From a bacterium (GTDB lineage: Bacteria > JAMCPX01): 53,029 nucleotides of DNA. The position numbers and the translations under genes are program-made. Location: contig JAJYUJ010000019.1 of NCBI GenBank assembly GCA_021792615.1, forward strand, positions 1 to 53,029, written 5' to 3'. Under the pieces are notes generated by a model. It was not told the DNA's origin, did no database searches, and saw only the letters and a program-made list of their open reading frames with translations. Numbering within the stretch: the stretch's first letter is position 1; the number at the start of each line of letters is the position of its first letter. This document shows positions 376 through 9,052 of the stretch, one piece after another.

Positions 376-395
376 ATTAAAGAGGGAGGATGGTA

Positions 396-947
396 ATGAG
401 GTTTTGTTTTAACGAACTGAAATCAGCTCAAGCTGCATCGTTTCTTATATCTCTTCATGGCGGGAAATTAAACTATATGGTTCTCATAAAATTGTTGTAT
501 CTTGCCGATCGCCAAACCCTTCTGGAGCTTGGATATACCATCACAGGCGATAGCTTTGTGTCAATGCCCAAAGGTCCTGTGCTGAGTAGAATTTTGGATC
601 TTATTACCATGGGCAAGCACAAAGAACGCACTCCATGGTTCCGCTATATTTCCGAACCGAGGGATTATGAAGTCAAGCTTGCAGAGCGCGCTCCGGCAAA
701 GAGAGATGAATTGTCGAAGTATGAGACGAAGGTGTTACAGGAAATATATAAAAAATACGGTTCAATGGACAAATGGGATCTTGTAGAACTCATGCATACA
801 TTACCCGAGTGGGAAGACCCTAAAGGATCATCGCTCACTATAGATCCTCAGAACATACTCCGTCTTGAGGGTATATCGCCTGAAAAGATAGAGCAATTCA
901 TCAGCCATGCAGAAGAAATATGTTTTTTAGAGAACGATCCCGTGTGA
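396..947 (+). CDS. Panacea/SocA-like (DUF4065) protein, possible antitoxin
   Basis: This 183-residue protein has the hallmark early segment of the Panacea/SocA (DUF4065) domain: a helix, then KLNYMVLIKLLYLADRQ, then a GD(S)F..MPKGPVLS turn. In known systems this domain is a promiscuous antitoxin domain that neutralises diverse partner toxins, or (SocA) a proteolytic adaptor-dependent antitoxin. The ATG at 390 abuts the GGAGG box with no spacer, so the in-frame ATG at 396, six bases after GGGAGG, is the better start. The stop is one base before the next ATG (949), which indicates translational coupling and fits an antitoxin-first pair. The domain call is fairly sure. The antitoxin role is inferred from family and layout. 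Base composition is more A+T-rich than the metabolic genes downstream. Confidence 0.65.
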   Translation: MRFCFNELKSAQAASFLISLHGGKLNYMVLIKLLYLADRQTLLELGYTITGDSFVSMPKGPVLSRILDLITMGKHKERTPWFRYISEPRDYEVKLAERAPAKRDELSKYETKVLQEIYKKYGSMDKWDLVELMHTLPEWEDPKGSSLTIDPQNILRLEGISPEKIEQFISHAEEICFLENDPV

Positions 948-948
948 C

Positions 949-1329
949 ATGAAAACTGGAGATACCTGTGTTCTTAGACTTCCGAACAAAATTCCACATC
1001 TCTGGATTATAATCTCCGACCCAACTCCCAACAATGAAGTCGTTATAGTTAATGTAACCACCGCTGATTTATCAGTGGATACTTCCTGCACTATTAAGCG
1101 CGGCGATCATCCGTTTATCAAACATGAATCTGTGATAGCTTATCATTATGCACGGCTCATATCTGTTAATAAAATAACGGAGTGGAAAACCAAGCATTAT
1201 TACGAATCATGGACATCGGTTAAGTATCTTCTTTTAAAGAGGATCCAGCAGGGGGCCATTGACTCCGAATATACTCCACAAAAGATTCAGGGGATTATAA
1301 TTAAACAGATGAATAAACCTAAGAAATAA
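949..1329 (+). CDS. Small basic protein, candidate toxin partner
   Basis: This 126-residue protein has a beta-rich first half (HLWIIISDP..NNEVVIVNVTT, then GDHPFIKHESVIAYHYA) and a Lys/Arg-rich C-terminal tail. The start with a hydrophobic strand after a GD…L.LP.K…H.W segment recalls the small SH3-like barrel of PemK/MazF-type proteins, but I cannot confirm membership and see no proven catalytic set. It starts one base after the Panacea-type gene stops and ends 22 bp before the helicase gene, so all three are very likely co-transcribed. Its place directly behind an antitoxin-like gene is the main reason to suspect a toxin. It could instead be a helper subunit of the helicase system. Confidence 0.45.
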   Translation: MKTGDTCVLRLPNKIPHLWIIISDPTPNNEVVIVNVTTADLSVDTSCTIKRGDHPFIKHESVIAYHYARLISVNKITEWKTKHYYESWTSVKYLLLKRIQQGAIDSEYTPQKIQGIIIKQMNKPKK

Positions 1330-1351
1330 TTATTTAGGTTCTCATAAATTT

Positions 1352-4300
1352 ATGCCTACACACGATATTATAGATAATAGGAACGAAAAGCTGGTTGATC
1401 ACATCAATCGCATTCTTGGCTCCACGGAATCAGCGCGTTTTGCTGTGGGGTATTTCTTTCTCTCCGGACTGACAAGCATCGCGGAAAAGCTTGCCGGGGT
1501 GAAGGAATTGCGCCTTCTGATTGGCAATACAACCAACCGCGAAACTCTTGAGCAACTGGCAGAAGGCTACCGCAGGTTAGAGCTTGTTGCTGATGAGGTT
1601 GATAAGCAAGGTCATCCAAAGCGAGTAGAATTAAAGCCAATGAGTGAAAAGGTTGCCGATAATATCAGGGGATCAGTAGAGCTTATGGATCAAACCGATG
1701 AAAGTGAGACACTTGTCAAAACACTCGTGCAAATGATCGAAGAAAAGCGGCTTAAAGTAAAAATCTATACTAATGGTCGTCTTCACGCCAAAGCGTATAT
1801 TTTTGATTACGGGACAGTTTACGATCATTCCGGCAAAAAGATTGACAGGCACGAGAAAGGCATTGCAATAGTCGGTTCATCGAACCTTACACTGTCCGGA
1901 GTTACACATAATACTGAATTGAATGTTGTTGTGCAGGGCAATGACAATCATGCAGAGCTTGTTGGTTGGTTTGATACACTATGGAAAGAATCTCAAGATT
2001 TTGATGAGGCCTTGATGCATGAGATGAAACAGTCCTGGGCAATTGTGCCTGCGAAACCCTATGATATTTACATGAAGACCCTATATTCACTGATAAAAGA
2101 TCGCCTTGAGGGTGAAGAAGAAAAAGAAGTCTTATGGGACGATGAAATCATAAAGAAGCTTGCTGATTTCCAGAAAACGGCAGTGTTGCAGGCTATACAA
2201 ATCATTAAAGACAATGGCGGGGTATTTGTTTCTGATGTAGTCGGATTGGGAAAATCCTATATCGGCACAGCTATTATCAAACACTTTGAGAAAACAGAAC
2301 ATGCAAGACCTCTCATTATATGTCCTGCTCCATTAACTGATATGTGGGAAAGCTATAACGAGATGTACCAGATCAACGCACGTGTCCTTTCTTCCGGCTA
2401 TTTAAAAGAAGCCGAGAATGGAGCACTCAACTTTCTGCTGAATGATATCAAGTATAAAGATCGGGATTTTGTGCTTATCGATGAAAGCCATAACTTCAGA
2501 TACCCTGATACCCAACGATATAAAGTAATCCAGTCATTTTTATCTACAGGAAGGAGATGCTGTTTCCTCACAGCAACACCTCGTAATAAAAGTGCATGGG
2601 ACGTGTATCATCAGATTAAGCTTTTTCATCAGGACGACAAAACTACTCTGCCTATAGACCCTCCTGAATTGAAACAATACTTCCGGCTTATTGAAAAGGG
2701 TGAGAAAAGATTACAAGATTTGCTGTCAAATCTATTGATCCGTCGTACCCGTAATCATATTTTACGCTGGTACGGCCTTGACGCTAAAACACAGCTTCCT
2801 GTAGATCCATCAAAGTTTAAAGAATATATAGATGGGGATAAGAAGGCATACGTGCTTGTCGGCGGAAGACATCAATTTTTCCCGAAACGTGAACTCGAAA
2901 CAATAGAGTATAGTATTGAAGAAACATATCAGGGACTTTACAAAGAATTACGAGGGTATCTTGGTAAGGCACGGAAGAAACAAGCTGATAATTTACCAGC
3001 GGATGAACTAACTTATGCACGTTACGGTTTATGGCATTATGTAAACAAAGACAAACAAAAGCAGGAGCCATACACAAGCCTGCATAGGGCAGGAGCTAAC
3101 CTGCACGGTTTGATAAGGGTATTGTTATTTAAACGCTTTGAATCAAGTGTTTTTGCATTTAGAGAGACCGTCAATAGGTTGCTTACAATACATAACAGAT
3201 TTTTGAATGCGTTATCCAATAAGATTATTCCTGCGGGTGATGACGCCCAGGCGATTCTCTATGAACCGAATGATGAAGAAGAGCGCGATCTCATGGATGC
3301 CTTACGAAATGTTTCCGGAAAATATAGTGCCTCAGATTTTGATATAGAACGCCTGAAAGAGCACATTGATCAAGATATTAAATTGTTTAGAAAAATCCTT
3401 CAATTGGTTGAACCTATCACTCCAGAAAAAGACGCTAAGCTGCAGACTCTGATAAAACGATTGAATGAAAAACCGCTCCTCGATGGCAAAAGATTAATTT
3501 TTACACAGTATGCTGATACAGCACGATATCTTTTTGAAAATCTAAACAAAGACCATAAAAGTGACATAGACGTTATATACAGCGGTGATAAGAGCAAGGC
3601 CCGCATTGTTGGCAGATTTGCACCAAAAGCTAATCCAGAATATAAGTTTCAAACTGGAGAGACTGAACTAAACACAGTTGTAGCAACTGATATATTGGCA
3701 GAAGGCTTAAATCTTCAAGATTGCAATAAGATTATCAATTATGACTTACATTGGAATCCTGTACGCCTGATCCAAAGGTTTGGCCGTATAGATCGAATCG
3801 GCAGTGAGTATGACGAGGTATATGGATTTAACTTTTTACCGGAAACCGGCATAGAACGTAATTTGGGTCTGCGTGAAAAGCTCCGGAACCGTATTCAGGA
3901 GATCCACGATACAATAGGAGAGGATGCCGCAATTCTTGACAGTAGCGAACAGATTAATGAGGAAGCGATGTATGCAATCTATGAAAAACGTGGAAGCCAA
4001 TTGAGTCTGTTCGAAGATGAGAAAGAAGAATTTATAGATCTTAATGAAGCAGAAGAAATAATGAGGCAACTACGTAAAGAAAATCCAGCAGAATATGAAC
4101 GTATTGCAAATCTCCGCGATGGCATACGTGCTTCAAAATCTTCAACGCTTGCAGGACTATATGTTTTTTGTGAAGCTTCATATCCAAATCAAGAGCATAC
4201 AAAAGGCTATCAACAATTATTTCTGTTAGATGAGAAAGGAAACATTGTATCTAAAGAAATATCCCATATTCTTAGTGCAATTAAGTGTACACCTGATACA

Positions 4301-4708
4301 GCCGGGGATGCCATACCAAAAGATTATAATACCGCAATTATGCGGATTAAACACCAGTTCACAGAAGAAGTTAAACATCGTCAATCCGAGTTTAAGCATT
4401 CACTATCATTAACACAGGGGCAAAGGTACATACTTAGAGAGCTGAGGATTATTTTTGAAGCAACTACAGATGAAGATGAAAAAGCTCAAATAAATATCCT
4501 TGAAAAAGCATTTCGCCGATCACTTCCACCTGCACTTAATAAAGAATTAAATAGAGTCAGACGCAATGGGATAACAGGAGAAAATTTATTGAAACTATTG
4601 ACTGATCTCTACCATCAATACAATATGCGAAATTGGTTTGACCGACAAACCTTGCAGCTTGAAGACCATCCGATACCACGGATTATATGCAGCGAAAAGC
4701 TGACTTAA
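1352..4708 (+). CDS. PLD-nuclease/SNF2-helicase fusion, probable phage defence
   Basis: This 1118-residue protein has two parts. Residues ~1-215 form a phospholipase-D-like nuclease domain with one HxKx4D motif (H145, K147, D152) and a GSSNLT motif at 175-180. Residues ~260-860 form a superfamily-2 SNF2-type ATPase: a Walker A-like VGLGKS (K301), a DESH box at 377-380, a motif III-like LTATP, and the C-terminal lobe with TDILAEGLN and QRFGRIDRIG (808-817). The rest (~870-1118) is charged and helical with no recognised fold. PLD plus SNF2 proteins are known from anti-phage and restriction-like systems (for example the separate DrmC and DrmD proteins of DISARM), so DNA translocation coupled to cleavage is a fair inference. 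With a single HKD motif it should act as a dimer. It closes the operon that starts at 396. The exact defence family is unknown to me. Confidence 0.75.
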   Translation: MPTHDIIDNRNEKLVDHINRILGSTESARFAVGYFFLSGLTSIAEKLAGVKELRLLIGNTTNRETLEQLAEGYRRLELVADEVDKQGHPKRVELKPMSEKVADNIRGSVELMDQTDESETLVKTLVQMIEEKRLKVKIYTNGRLHAKAYIFDYGTVYDHSGKKIDRHEKGIAIVGSSNLTLSGVTHNTELNVVVQGNDNHAELVGWFDTLWKESQDFDEALMHEMKQSWAIVPAKPYDIYMKTLYSLIKDRLEGEEEKEVLWDDEIIKKLADFQKTAVLQAIQIIKDNGGVFVSDVVGLGKSYIGTAIIKHFEKTEHARPLIICPAPLTDMWESYNEMYQINARVLSSGYLKEAENGALNFLLNDIKYKDRDFVLIDESHNFRYPDTQRYKVIQSFLSTGRRCCFLTATPRNKSAWDVYHQIKLFHQDDKTTLPIDPPELKQYFRLIEKGEKRLQDLLSNLLIRRTRNHILRWYGLDAKTQLPVDPSKFKEYIDGDKKAYVLVGGRHQFFPKRELETIEYSIEETYQGLYKELRGYLGKARKKQADNLPADELTYARYGLWHYVNKDKQKQEPYTSLHRAGANLHGLIRVLLFKRFESSVFAFRETVNRLLTIHNRFLNALSNKIIPAGDDAQAILYEPNDEEERDLMDALRNVSGKYSASDFDIERLKEHIDQDIKLFRKILQLVEPITPEKDAKLQTLIKRLNEKPLLDGKRLIFTQYADTARYLFENLNKDHKSDIDVIYSGDKSKARIVGRFAPKANPEYKFQTGETELNTVVATDILAEGLNLQDCNKIINYDLHWNPVRLIQRFGRIDRIGSEYDEVYGFNFLPETGIERNLGLREKLRNRIQEIHDTIGEDAAILDSSEQINEEAMYAIYEKRGSQLSLFEDEKEEFIDLNEAEEIMRQLRKENPAEYERIANLRDGIRASKSSTLAGLYVFCEASYPNQEHTKGYQQLFLLDEKGNIVSKEISHILSAIKCTPDTAGDAIPKDYNTAIMRIKHQFTEEVKHRQSEFKHSLSLTQGQRYILRELRIIFEATTDEDEKAQINILEKAFRRSLPPALNKELNRVRRNGITGENLLKLLTDLYHQYNMRNWFDRQTLQLEDHPIPRIICSEKLT

Positions 4709-4791: not shown

Positions 4792-4825
4792 AAGACCAGA
4801 AAAGCACCAATAGATTTTTGGTCTT
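4792..4825 (-). terminator. Terminator-like hairpin after the SRPBCC gene
   Basis: On the minus strand AAGACCA (4825-4819) pairs with TGGTCTT (4798-4792) around a 20-base loop and runs straight into TTTTTG. The stem begins within the stop codon of the SRPBCC gene. It probably ends minus-strand transcripts and sits between two convergent transcription units. Confidence 0.45.
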
Positions 4826-5480
4826 ACCGCTTGCCTTCCCCATCCACCCACTTTTGCATGGCTTTTGTGTAGACGAGGGCGGATGAGGTCGAGATCGCGG
4901 TATTCAGCACAGGTTGTTTCTCCAGCATATATTTTATCAGGAACCCGAGCGAGCTTATATCGGTGTAGACCCTGTAGAACCCGATGGTTTTGTTCCCATT
5001 GTCTATGGGAATGAGCTTCCATGAACCATCTACCGTATCGAGGTTGCCCGCTATCCTCGTCCAGGTAATGCTACGGGGAGGATCAAGCACCTGTTCCAGG
5101 GTATAGTCGGCATGCTCCGAGAGAATGGAAAATTTAAACTCGACTTTATAGCTTACGTCCCAGACATTCCCTTTTTTCCGTAAGACCTTTACCTCCGTTG
5201 TCTGAGGGATGTTGCCGGCGTAGTGCGAATAATCGGTTATTGTCGAGAACACTTCGGCAATGGGGGCATTGAACAGCGTCACAGCGGTTACAAACTGCGG
5301 CTGGTCAGGCCGGGTATTGTCCAGGAAGATCAGCTCACCTTTCTGGAGTAATTTCTGTAATACCCCGGGCGAGGCCGCTGCAAATTGTTCAATGGTTGAC
5401 GGACTGTCCCCCGCATGCGCTGCAGGAATGCAGAGAAACACCAGGGATATGGCAACCACGGCGGTGATCAGCTGTCGCAT
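4824..5480 (-). CDS. Exported SRPBCC (START-like) domain protein
   Basis: This 218-residue protein has a clear signal peptide: MRQLITAVVAISLVFLCIPA followed by AHA-G, so it is likely cleaved and periplasmic. The mature part fits the SRPBCC/START-like ligand-binding fold of the polyketide-cyclase/coenzyme-Q-binding type, with VTLFNAPIAEVFSTITDYSHYAG, then alternating strands and a long amphipathic C-terminal helix. The start at 5480 is chosen because AAGGAGGGCTT lies just upstream, whereas an upstream in-frame ATG at 5603 lacks a signal sequence and a ribosome site. It is the last gene of the minus-strand thiolase/DUF35 cluster but is separated by 169 bp holding a repeat, so it may be transcribed independently. 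The ligand is unknown; a hydrophobic acyl or aromatic compound is plausible. Confidence 0.65.
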   Translation of the reverse strand: MRQLITAVVAISLVFLCIPAAHAGDSPSTIEQFAAASPGVLQKLLQKGELIFLDNTRPDQPQFVTAVTLFNAPIAEVFSTITDYSHYAGNIPQTTEVKVLRKKGNVWDVSYKVEFKFSILSEHADYTLEQVLDPPRSITWTRIAGNLDTVDGSWKLIPIDNGNKTIGFYRVYTDISSLGFLIKYMLEKQPVLNTAISTSSALVYTKAMQKWVDGEGKR

Positions 5481-5649: not shown

Positions 5650-6105
5650 TCATTTCTCCGTCAACTGGAAGTGCGACAGGTCTGCGAGTGCCCCTTGTGT
5701 TACATCCTTCCAGACCGCTTTGACCCTCATGCCCTCTTTGATGCTGCGCCAATCCGTCCAGCCTTCGAGTACCCCCATAAGGAAGGAATGTGTACCGTCG
5801 AGTTTTACGGTGCAGGTAATATAGGGATGCTCGACTATGGTGCCTTTTACGTCGGCAAGGTTGACGGTGAATGCATCGAGCGTGCCTTCCTGGCTCACTT
5901 CGACAACCTGATCAATATCTCTAAAACACTTTCTGCAATACGTGGGGCCCGGCACATACACCGTCCCGCATTGAGGGCATTTTCTTCCGAGTATTTTTTT
6001 GTCCTTTAATCCCTTTACAAACAGGTCAAGGGCGTCTGATTCAATCTTCCACTGATAAGCCGTTAAATCCCATGTATTTTCTATTATCCTTGTTTCCTGA
6101 GCCAT
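5650..6105 (-). CDS. Zn-ribbon/OB-fold acyl-CoA-binding protein (DUF35)
   Basis: This 151-residue protein has the DUF35 layout: an N-terminal helix, a rubredoxin-like zinc ribbon with C43-x2-C46 and C57-x2-C60 (CPQCG…YCRKC), then an OB-fold beta barrel ending in VKAVWKDVTQG. Proteins of this family bind the CoA part of substrates and form obligate complexes with thiolase-superfamily partners (archaeal acetoacetyl-CoA thiolase/HMG-CoA synthase complexes, BbsA-BbsB of the benzylsuccinate pathway). It lies 9 bp after the stop of the 415-residue thiolase-fold gene and is therefore its likely partner. A paralogue sits at the other end of the same operon. Confidence 0.8.
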   Translation of the reverse strand: MAQETRIIENTWDLTAYQWKIESDALDLFVKGLKDKKILGRKCPQCGTVYVPGPTYCRKCFRDIDQVVEVSQEGTLDAFTVNLADVKGTIVEHPYITCTVKLDGTHSFLMGVLEGWTDWRSIKEGMRVKAVWKDVTQGALADLSHFQLTEK

Positions 6106-6114
6106 ACTACCTCC

Positions 6115-7362
6115 TTATTTCTTTACCGGTGTCCTGCCGAGTACGGTCACTGTAACGAACTGGAACAGTCCTCCCCAGCCGTGAGCAACCACGTTTTCGA
6201 TCTTTCTTTGTACCTGGTGTCCTCCCTCTGCAAGACCCATGACCTGTAACGCCGCCTCCCCGACCCTTACCATCGCCGAGGCACCTATTGCATTGGTACT
6301 GGTAACCCCACCCGACGGGTTGAGCGGGAGTTCACCGTCTATTGCGAATGCTCCTTTATCAAGCATCTCCGGAGATTTGCCTTCGTCAACCAGGCCAAGC
6401 CGTTCGGGCCACATGAGATCCTGATGTGAAAAACCGGAATATACCTCTGCCACCTGAATGTCTTTCCGCGGGTCCTTTATTCCGGCCATGGAGTATACCT
6501 TTTTTGCAACGACCTTGCACATGTACTGCTCGGCAGGATCGGTAATCTGGCCTTCGATGATATTACCTGTTGTTGCATCCGATGCGCCCGAGCCGAGTCC
6601 CTTGACCCATGCTACCCTGTCTGTGATACCGAATTTCTTTGCCTTTTCTTCGGATACAAGGATCATCGCTATGGCACCGCAGGACGTCGGGCAGGTATGT
6701 CCGTACCTCAAGGGGTATGAAATGATCGGCGTCTTTGCGATGTCCGCCTCCGTGCATCCTGGCTGCTGGAGATGGGCATAGGGGTTTTTAGCCGCATTCG
6801 ACCGCATCATTGCCGCAACCCGGTCGATGTGTTCGATGCCTGCATGTGCCTTCGTAAGGTAGGACATTGCCTGAAATGCCGCACCGCCGGTCGAACCGCC
6901 GCCTCCGAGTCCTGCTACCCCCCTGTCCTCGCTCATATCCGGACCGAAATTAAACAAAGAAAAAGCCTCGGGCAGGAGTATTCCCATGAGTCCTACCTGT
7001 GCGTCCCCTTCATCATGCTTTTCCCAGCCTATGGCCATAACGACGTCGTACATGCCCGATGCAACATGGTAATAAGCTGCCTGGTAAACCGATGCCCCGG
7101 TCGATCCGCCGGTTGCAACCCTCATAACAGGTTTTTTTGATCCGCCGAAATGATCGCTTGCCCAGAGGTGCGGCTGATTTATGCCTTCGAATGTGTGCAT
7201 ATTACCGACGACGTACGCCTCTATCTGGTCATGCTTGAGCTTCGTTTTGCCGATCGCGGTGTCAACCGCCGGCTGAATGAGCTCCGGTATATTGATATCA
7301 GGCCTCTTGCTTACAAACCTGCCATTATAACCGACACTGATAATTGCTACATTTCTTTTCAT
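6115..7362 (-). CDS. Thiolase-fold protein without the usual Cys nucleophile
   Basis: This 415-residue protein has the thiolase/SCP2-thiolase two-half fold: an N-terminal domain with the nucleophile loop, a middle CPTSCGAIAMIL segment, and a C-terminal half with EVYSGFSHQDL, NPSGG (348-352) and an HGWGG loop (394-398). Where thiolases carry the acyl-accepting cysteine (VExACASG-type loop) this protein reads RVATGGSTGA (81-90), and where the GHP histidine is expected it reads TNAIGAS (356-362). Both classical catalytic residues therefore seem replaced. It follows the 382-residue homologue by 2 bp and precedes a DUF35 gene, so the four proteins probably form a complex. It may cleave or form C-C bonds by a variant chemistry, or have a structural or CoA-binding role. 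An acyl-CoA substrate is inferred, not shown. Confidence 0.7.
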   Translation of the reverse strand: MKRNVAIISVGYNGRFVSKRPDINIPELIQPAVDTAIGKTKLKHDQIEAYVVGNMHTFEGINQPHLWASDHFGGSKKPVMRVATGGSTGASVYQAAYYHVASGMYDVVMAIGWEKHDEGDAQVGLMGILLPEAFSLFNFGPDMSEDRGVAGLGGGGSTGGAAFQAMSYLTKAHAGIEHIDRVAAMMRSNAAKNPYAHLQQPGCTEADIAKTPIISYPLRYGHTCPTSCGAIAMILVSEEKAKKFGITDRVAWVKGLGSGASDATTGNIIEGQITDPAEQYMCKVVAKKVYSMAGIKDPRKDIQVAEVYSGFSHQDLMWPERLGLVDEGKSPEMLDKGAFAIDGELPLNPSGGVTSTNAIGASAMVRVGEAALQVMGLAEGGHQVQRKIENVVAHGWGGLFQFVTVTVLGRTPVKK

Positions 7363-7364
7363 GC

Positions 7365-8513
7365 TTACCTCCTTACAACAAAAACAGTATTCAACTGGGC
7401 GCCGGGTCCGTCCTGTGCATGAACTACGGCAGTTTTTGCGCCTTTAACCTGGTTCTTTCCCGCCTCTTTTCTTAATTGTTCACTCGCTTCGGCAAGCCGT
7501 ATAAGCCCTGTCGCATTGATCGGATTTGCTCCGAGAGGACCGCCCGATGGATTTACCGGCAATGCACCGCCTATTCCGCTATCTCCGTTCTTGACGACAT
7601 CTTTTCCGCTCCCCGGCTTAAAAAGCCCCATGGCCTCGGCGAATACGGGTTCTTCGGAAGCGAAATTCGTGTGGAGCTCTGCAAAATCTATCTCTTTTTT
7701 GGGGTTCTTGATTCCGGCCATTTTATACGCTTTTTTGGCTGCCGCCGACAAGTGTTCCATTCCCAGAAGGTCCCGGTCACCTATATAATAGGTGTCCATA
7801 GAATGACCTACACCGTCTATCCATACCGGTGTATCGGTAAATTTCTTTGCCGCTTTTTTTGACGACAGGATCACGGCGCATGCCCCGTCGGCATAAGCGG
7901 ATACGTGTGCCTGTCTGATGGGCAGGTAGAGCGGTTTTGAATTCAGGACATCCTCTACGGAGATCGTTGGCTCCTTGCGTGCTGCGTACGGGTTATTGTT
8001 TGCGTTCTGGAGGTTCTTTACCGTGAGCCTCGCCAGGTCTTCATCGGTAAATTTATATTTTTTCATATACGCACTTGCCTGAAGAGCCGCTGTCGAATAG
8101 AAATTTATGATGCCGCGGGGCCTTTCGTAAACAGGGTCAAGCGTATACGCCTGTGTGAGAGGAACTCTGAACTCCGAGCCCGCCATGCTGAAACCGATAA
8201 CAAGGGCTGTTTCATATAACCCGGACAGAATACGCATGTAAGCATACAATGCCGCATTCAGCCCGTCTGCCTCGACCTTTGTTTCGTCCTTCATAAAAGA
8301 TCCTATCCGCGGAACCGTGTAGACTTCGGAGATCGTCCTGCCGTCGGTAAAATCGTTGCTCGCAAATATAAAAGTATCGATATCGTCCCTGGTGATGCCA
8401 AGGTCTTTGAACAAGGACTTTACAAGCTCGTATATCATCCTTTCCCGCGCAACAGGGCTGTCAAAGGTGTGTTTTGTTTGTTTATAACCGACTACTGCAA
8501 CCCTTTCATTCAT
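7365..8513 (-). CDS. Second thiolase-fold protein, nucleophile position altered
   Basis: This 382-residue thiolase-superfamily member belongs to the archaeal/DUF35-linked type. The loop that should hold the active cysteine reads KVEADGLNAAL (79-89), with Asp-Gly where Cys-Ala is usual. NPSGG is present at 321-325, but the following GHP site is NPINATG (330-336), and the late glycine loop is HAQDGPG (365-371). Other family features are kept, for example YADGACAVILSS and AELHTNFASEE. The neighbouring 415-residue protein is diverged in the same places. The gene is 36 bp downstream of the first DUF35 gene and 2 bp upstream of the second thiolase-fold gene, indicating coupled expression. Loss of the nucleophile is read by eye from family patterns and needs an alignment. 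Confidence 0.7.
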   Translation of the reverse strand: MNERVAVVGYKQTKHTFDSPVARERMIYELVKSLFKDLGITRDDIDTFIFASNDFTDGRTISEVYTVPRIGSFMKDETKVEADGLNAALYAYMRILSGLYETALVIGFSMAGSEFRVPLTQAYTLDPVYERPRGIINFYSTAALQASAYMKKYKFTDEDLARLTVKNLQNANNNPYAARKEPTISVEDVLNSKPLYLPIRQAHVSAYADGACAVILSSKKAAKKFTDTPVWIDGVGHSMDTYYIGDRDLLGMEHLSAAAKKAYKMAGIKNPKKEIDFAELHTNFASEEPVFAEAMGLFKPGSGKDVVKNGDSGIGGALPVNPSGGPLGANPINATGLIRLAEASEQLRKEAGKNQVKGAKTAVVHAQDGPGAQLNTVFVVRR

Positions 8514-8549: not shown

Positions 8550-8999
8550 TCATGCAGGTTCGAAGTACGCAAGGTCATTATAGTCGCCCTGCGTTGTCTC
8601 TTTCCATACAGCTTTCACCTTCATACCCGTTTTCACCTCAGGCACGGAAGAAGTCTTTATAATACCTGAGATCAGGCTGGAAGCCCCGGGCAGCTTGATC
8701 AGTCCGATTATGTACGGCTGCTGGACATCGGTGATCTCGCCATTGGCTATAGTCACGTGCGCTGTCGTAAAATTTTTCAGTACGCCTTCCTGACCGATCT
8801 CCACCATCTGATCGATTGGTTTGTGACATTTGCCGCATACGGTACGGGGCGGCACATATACTTTTTTGCACGCAGGGCATTTTACACCCAATATCTTTTT
8901 TTCTTTGAGGCCGTTGATATATTGTTCCAGTGCGTGACCAACCCTGTTTTTATACGAAAATGTTATTGGCACCCTAGCCCTTACAACGTTACCAGGCAT
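8550..8999 (-). CDS. Zn-ribbon/OB-fold acyl-CoA-binding protein (DUF35)
   Basis: The protein is 149 residues from the ATG at 8999, chosen because AAGGAGGGAATT stands directly upstream; an in-frame ATG at 9047 would add a hydrophobic, poorly supported 16-residue extension overlapping the promoter. The zinc ribbon is C41-x2-C44…C55-x2-C58 (CPACK, CGKCH), followed by an OB barrel ending VKAVWKETTQGDYNDLAYFEP. The layout is the same as the paralogue at 5650-6105, so the operon carries two thiolase-fold/DUF35 pairs. It is the first gene of the minus-strand operon. Confidence 0.8.
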   Translation of the reverse strand: MPGNVVRARVPITFSYKNRVGHALEQYINGLKEKKILGVKCPACKKVYVPPRTVCGKCHKPIDQMVEIGQEGVLKNFTTAHVTIANGEITDVQQPYIIGLIKLPGASSLISGIIKTSSVPEVKTGMKVKAVWKETTQGDYNDLAYFEPA

Positions 9000-9023: not shown

Positions 9024-9052
9024 AATATACAAAATTATAAACCGCAATGCAA
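9024..9052 (-). promoter_or_regulatory. Promoter of the thiolase/DUF35 operon
   Basis: On the minus strand, TTGCAT (9052-9047), a 17-base spacer and TATATT (9029-9024) form a good housekeeping-type promoter about 25 bp before the start codon at 8999. A perfect palindrome lies just upstream of the -35 box. Confidence 0.5.

Follow-up and report, generated by a model that had tools for sequence, protein, structure and literature searches.

A Cys-free pair of thiolase-fold proteins flanked by two DUF35 genes, a candidate heteromeric C-C lyase or synthase of the Ltp3-Ltp4 kind in an uncultured bacterial lineage

The window analyzed, a stretch of 53,029 nucleotides (contig JAJYUJ010000019.1 of assembly GCA_021792615.1), carries on its minus strand a compact set of four genes in the order D2-B-A-D1, each with a strong ribosome-binding site, and next to them a gene for an SRPBCC protein. 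An earlier note on this DNA had described A and B as adjacent thiolase-fold genes at 6115-8513 with two DUF35 partners. Open reading frames and Pfam searches confirmed their positions and strand, with a DUF35 gene on either side. The features discussed below are the following:

8550..8999, minus strand: D2, DUF35 protein with a Zn ribbon and an OB fold, 149 aa, first gene of the cassette (Pfam zf-ChsH2 and OB_ChsH2_C)
7365..8513, minus strand: B, Ltp4-type thiolase-fold subunit, 382 aa, without the nucleophilic Cys and with Asn330 for the GHP His
8265..8267, minus strand: Asp83 of B, in the former nucleophile loop (45/46 B rows)
6115..7362, minus strand: A, Ltp3-type thiolase-fold subunit, 415 aa, without the nucleophilic Cys; candidate catalytic subunit
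7105..7107, minus strand: Gly86 of A, at the position of the nucleophilic Cys (50/50 aligned A rows)
6439..6441, minus strand: Tyr308 of A, at the HDCF His; candidate base (50/50 rows; aligns with Ltp2 Tyr294 and Sal Tyr302)
6292..6294, minus strand: Asn357 of A, at the GHP His (50/50 A rows)
5650..6105, minus strand: D1, second DUF35 protein, 151 aa (Pfam zf-ChsH2 and OB_ChsH2_C)
4824..5480, minus strand: SRPBCC (START-like) protein with an apparent signal peptide, downstream of the cassette (Pfam Polyketide_cyc)

Pfam assigns Thiolase_C_1 to A and B alike, and Thiolase_N to A in addition. The start of D2 was placed at the ATG at 8999, which is kept in orthologues (an alternative open TTG lies at 9047), and its ribosome-binding site reads AAGGAGG. 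D1 adjoins A in orthologous loci as well. The SRPBCC gene, found after the cassette in a number of genera within the same family and with a relative (33% identity) beside a cassette of another phylum (L055:4571-5314), is probably accessory and outside the core cassette. Otherwise the cassette is surrounded in the window by housekeeping genes and a variable island. Positions 390-4708 carry genes for a protein with a SocA/Panacea domain, for one of 126 aa, and for a PLD + SNF2 helicase (PADLOC HKD+Snf2, 266 bits). This segment, adjoining the conserved cassette, is possibly a defence or toxin-antitoxin island, and relatives carry other genes in its place; we assigned its PADLOC and Pfam matches to a separate feature, not to the A/B cassette.

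We aligned A and B with thiolases of solved structure (the archaeal thiolase 6esq, the SCP2-thiolase 6hsj, 7yvy, and BbsB 7pxp). The alignment agrees with the earlier reading that both proteins lost the nucleophilic Cys and the GHP His and kept NPSGG. The nucleophile column is occupied by Gly86 in A (RVATGGSTG) and falls in the Asp83-Gly84 loop in B (KVEADGLNA), and the GHP His is replaced by Asn357 in A (STNAIGA) and Asn330 in B (GANPINA). At the third catalytic motif, HDCF, absent from the earlier note, A reads Tyr308-Ser-Gly-Phe (YSGF) and B His281-Thr-Asn-Phe (HTNF). An alignment placing another Cys of either protein in the nucleophile column would have changed this picture; none is there. 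Since the Cys residues of A (203, 224, 228 and 282) and the single one of B (212, far away) all lie at other positions, no other Cys is able to replace the nucleophile, and a nucleophile hidden by misalignment was ruled out. Likewise, none of the A-clade sequences found (37 distinct) has a Cys at this position. The thiolase set of nucleophilic Cys, GHP His, and HDCF His and Cys is thus complete in neither protein and, as the acyl-cysteine cannot form, classical thiolysis is impossible for the pair.

Loss of these residues was not accompanied by decay. In the alignment of A (50 rows, 37 distinct by loop region), Thr84, Gly86, Gly89, His197, Cys224, Glu306, Tyr308, Asn357 and Arg366 are invariant, His197 being specific to the A clade. 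The B residue equivalent to Tyr308 varies (H, S, T, Y, N, E); conserved in B are Asp83, Asp209 (46/46) and Gln373 (45/45). The dN/dS ratio was 0.018 for A and 0.033 for B, measured against the nearest useful relative (98% protein identity for A, 96% for B), synonymous sites being saturated in more distant comparisons. Purifying selection acts strongly on both genes, and these ratios together with the invariant residues rule out a pseudogene. Structure prediction contributed little: the AlphaFold model of A, built with ten close homologues, was discarded (mean pLDDT 33), and that of B (mean pLDDT 57.5, pTM 0.63) was used solely as evidence of a thiolase fold, Foldseek matching this low-confidence model to SCP2-thiolases with a TM of about 0.75. 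The positions of residues in space were therefore inferred from the sequence alignment.

The A-B pair was present in 9 of the 9 genomes of the phylum examined, all from one family and of about 2-2.6 Mb each, and it lies beside era and der, both housekeeping genes, in the window and in four related contigs. The order D2-B-A-D1 was also found in unrelated contigs, complete in L022 and partial, at contig ends, in L021 and L023. Genome G022 carries a split orthologous cassette; of the A genes from other phyla, the closest one (about 74% identity) is divided between the contig ends G022:C75 and G022:C125. The cassette DUF35-B-A-DUF35 recurs in other phyla, from which we collected further relatives, together with plasmid-collection records of Rhodococcus, Nocardia, Tsukamurella, Nonomuraea, Cupriavidus and Simplicispira. 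With a profile we surveyed 385 genomes drawn from across the domain and found A in 19 of them; B was adjacent at 26 of the 27 survey loci fetched, some of which are re-fetched copies.

We built an unrooted tree that included the solved structures and other thiolases of the same genome, with groups taken as the sides of branches. Three groups were resolved: the A rows (support 99/96), the B rows (100/100), and all others. Ltp2, Sal and 4u4e formed a separate clade (100/99), with A outside it. The A and B subtrees were congruent (Mantel r 0.66, with 0 of 9,999 permutations as high). Among 432 reshuffles within genomes, made possible by paralogous cassettes in four genomes, the true A-B pairing was the best, with a close runner-up (0.645); the species tree alone cannot account for this result, which is why the reshuffling within genomes matters. 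A and B are inherited as pairs. The same genome encodes three other SCP2-type thiolase-fold proteins, at L057:6617-7876 (contig C45), L058:6404-7702 (C12) and L060:6565-7875 (C73), all with Gly for the nucleophilic Cys and with HDA and GHA/GHP kept. The gene on C45 adjoins DUF35 and CoA-transferase genes, and that on C73 a gene for a B12-binding domain protein and a DUF35 gene.

The earlier note had proposed BbsB and archaeal thiolase complexes as comparators, which turned out not to be the closest relatives; pairs of the Ltp3-Ltp4 type are closer. A review describes Ltp3-Ltp4 as a heteromeric aldol-lyase acting on branched sterol side chains, which it cuts at C24-C25, and in Mycobacterium the gene order is Rv3520c, Rv3521, ltp4 (Rv3522), ltp3 (Rv3523). 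In Rhodococcus, ltp3 and ltp4 are reported to be essential for degrading C24-branched side chains (Wilbrink 2012). The actinobacterial members of the A and B clades come from a steroid locus. The Tsukamurella pair comes after one gene with two OB domains (a fused double DUF35), with an F420-dependent oxidoreductase, a P450 and a steroid thiolase within 20 kb, and the actinobacterial pairs fit the NCBIfam models PRK08313 (A, 734-750 bits) and PRK07937 (B, 593-596 bits). Judged by its gene order, which fits the mycobacterial one, and by the scores of its two genes with PRK07937 (593 bits) and PRK08313 (734 bits), the Tsukamurella pair is probably Ltp4 and Ltp3. The window pair shares with this type the tandem of a B-clade and then an A-clade thiolase-fold gene with two DUF35 units next to it, the loss of Cys, and the Tyr in A. 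It differs in that A is only about 34-38% identical to its actinobacterial counterparts, in having separate DUF35 genes instead of the fused Rv3521-like double DUF35, and in belonging to an uncultured lineage with small genomes, which is known from metagenome bins. The best NCBIfam model for A is PRK08313, at 355 bits (cut-off 514), and B scores 202 bits with PRK07937 (cut-off 419), both below threshold. We found no P450 in the window's genome, and the cassette lies outside any steroid or other catabolic cluster. Given these scores, the missing P450 and the housekeeping and island neighbours, we classify the window pair as a variant of the Ltp3-Ltp4 kind and not as an Ltp3/Ltp4 orthologue. With P450 absent, steroid degradation as the substrate route in this genome is unsupported, although an oxygen-independent route is possible.

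Other thiolase-fold enzymes with DUF35 partners resemble the pair less. BbsAB, the benzoylsuccinyl-CoA thiolase (7pxp), is an SCP2-like thiolase with a DUF35 partner and, unlike A and B, keeps the nucleophilic Cys (QSACSAG), HDAF and GHP; against its equivalog model the scores were 84 and 120, with a cut-off of 750. The archaeal acetoacetyl-CoA thiolase/HMG-CoA synthase complex (6esq) also binds a thiolase to DUF35, but keeps Cys, HDCF and GHA. Since both retain the Cys, neither is the family of the pair. In the alignment, the aldolases Ltp2 and Sal do combine Gly in the nucleophile column with Tyr in that of the HDCF His, as does A but not B. In Sal the Tyr of YDCY is the base and Cys304 the acid, with Gly at the nucleophile position; in Ltp2 the Tyr of YDHF is the base and Tyr344 the acid. 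The Ltp2-ChsH2(DUF35) complex (6ok1) thus shares with A the thiolase fold, the Gly, the Tyr and a DUF35 partner, but has Tyr344 and the YDHF His, neither of which A has. Sal-Shy(DUF35), a bile acid aldolase (9myr) built on a central Sal homodimer, likewise shares the Gly, the YDCY Tyr and the DUF35 partner, but uses Cys304. Neither is a two-gene thiolase-fold pair. The general acid of these enzymes is absent in A, which has Asn357 at the place of Tyr344 and Gly310 at that of Cys304. The likeness of A to Ltp2 and Sal is therefore limited to the base position and, as A falls outside their clade, its Tyr308 may have arisen convergently and may serve another purpose.

From evolutionary evidence (the gene order kept, one clade for each subunit, co-inheritance, and an actinobacterial counterpart published as heteromeric) we infer a physical complex of A, B and the DUF35 proteins, in line with the heteromeric complex suggested earlier. 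Its suggestion of non-classical acyl-CoA chemistry also fits, the thiolase residues being gone and A having an invariant Tyr at the base site of Ltp2 and Sal. We favour, with moderate confidence, an obligate A-B-DUF35 complex carrying out retro-aldol or aldol chemistry on a beta-hydroxyacyl-CoA, with A as the catalytic subunit; both the reaction and the role of A are inferred. The four genes would encode one heteromeric enzyme, with A and B as thiolase-fold subunits and the two DUF35 proteins as subunits for docking and acyl-CoA binding. Tyr308 of A would accept the proton of the beta-hydroxyl, the Calpha-Cbeta bond would be cleaved (or formed in the reverse direction), and an aldehyde or ketone would depart, leaving an acyl-CoA enolate to be protonated. 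The general acid may be His197 or Cys224, both invariant in A. B lacks conservation at the equivalent of Tyr308 and probably serves as a structural or non-catalytic partner shaping the dimer and the substrate pocket.

That both subunits are dead scaffolds, binding or channelling acyl-CoA for another pathway enzyme, would suit the loss of the classical catalytic residues in A and B and the freedom of the base position to vary in B. We consider it very unlikely, as the invariance of Tyr308, Asn357, His197, Cys224 and the TxG loop across phyla exceeds what a scaffold needs, and the requirement reported for Rhodococcus ltp3 and ltp4 also speaks against it. Catalysis could alternatively lie in B, with Asp83 as the base, or in a site at the A-B interface to which both subunits contribute. 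The conservation of Asp83, Asp209 and Gln373 in B would fit such a role, but the HDCF and GHP positions vary in B and this arrangement seems quite improbable; we know of no thiolase-fold enzyme with an Asp at the place of Asp83.

The direction of the reaction might instead be biosynthetic, an aldol addition or other enolate chemistry such as a malonyl-CoA or beta-keto decarboxylase or condensing step in lipid or polyketide-like metabolism, with the exported SRPBCC protein handling the product. The presence of the pair in every small genome of the phylum examined, its position next to era and der in several of them, and the SRPBCC gene that follows would all be consistent with this, and a Cys-free relative, TbSLP, has been published to decarboxylate malonyl-CoA slowly. 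However, annotated relatives lie beside acyl-CoA ligases, dehydrogenases and hydratases, a setting typical of degradation, and Sal has been published not to decarboxylate malonyl-CoA, so that we regard a biosynthetic role as unlikely. A broader proposal, which we put forward tentatively and hold to be possible rather than probable, is that these pairs form an overlooked, widespread class of obligate heteromeric Cys-free thiolase-fold C-C lyases or synthases, in which the Tyr would be independent of that of Ltp2 and Sal, the acid clade-specific (e.g., His197), Asp83 of B would help to build the site, and the role in this lineage would be a core, non-steroid one.

Annotation labels such genes as acetyl-CoA acetyltransferase, thiolase or lipid-transfer protein, and metabolic models built from genomes would therefore credit them with an impossible thiolysis. 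A signature of T-x-G-x-x-G without Cys, Tyr for the HDCF His, Asn for the GHP His, and a co-inherited B separates the pairs by sequence. The literature searched held neither a structure of Ltp3-Ltp4 nor a mechanism established in detail, and the non-actinobacterial pairs offer fresh material for such studies.

Searched by family, the window's genome gave 19 matches to acyl-CoA dehydrogenase and 8 to crotonase, besides one tandem MaoC pair, and is thus equipped to make beta-hydroxyacyl-CoA. In G022, another cassette comes after two genes for acyl-CoA dehydrogenases; the relatives of these in the window's genome (66% and 55%) lie side by side on contig C59. This indirectly suggests an order of dehydrogenation, hydration and retro-aldol cleavage, the reverse direction being possible too. 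The only MaoC matches of the genome are the tandem FAS1-dehydratase-like and MaoC genes at L091:6818-7673 (contig C54), which may encode a heteromeric hydratase acting before the aldolase step. Finally, GMC oxidoreductase genes lie near A-B cassettes in two unrelated genomes (L022:1540-4999, where there is also an amine-oxidase-like flavoprotein, and L052:2005-4250), a hint of alcohol or lipid substrates.
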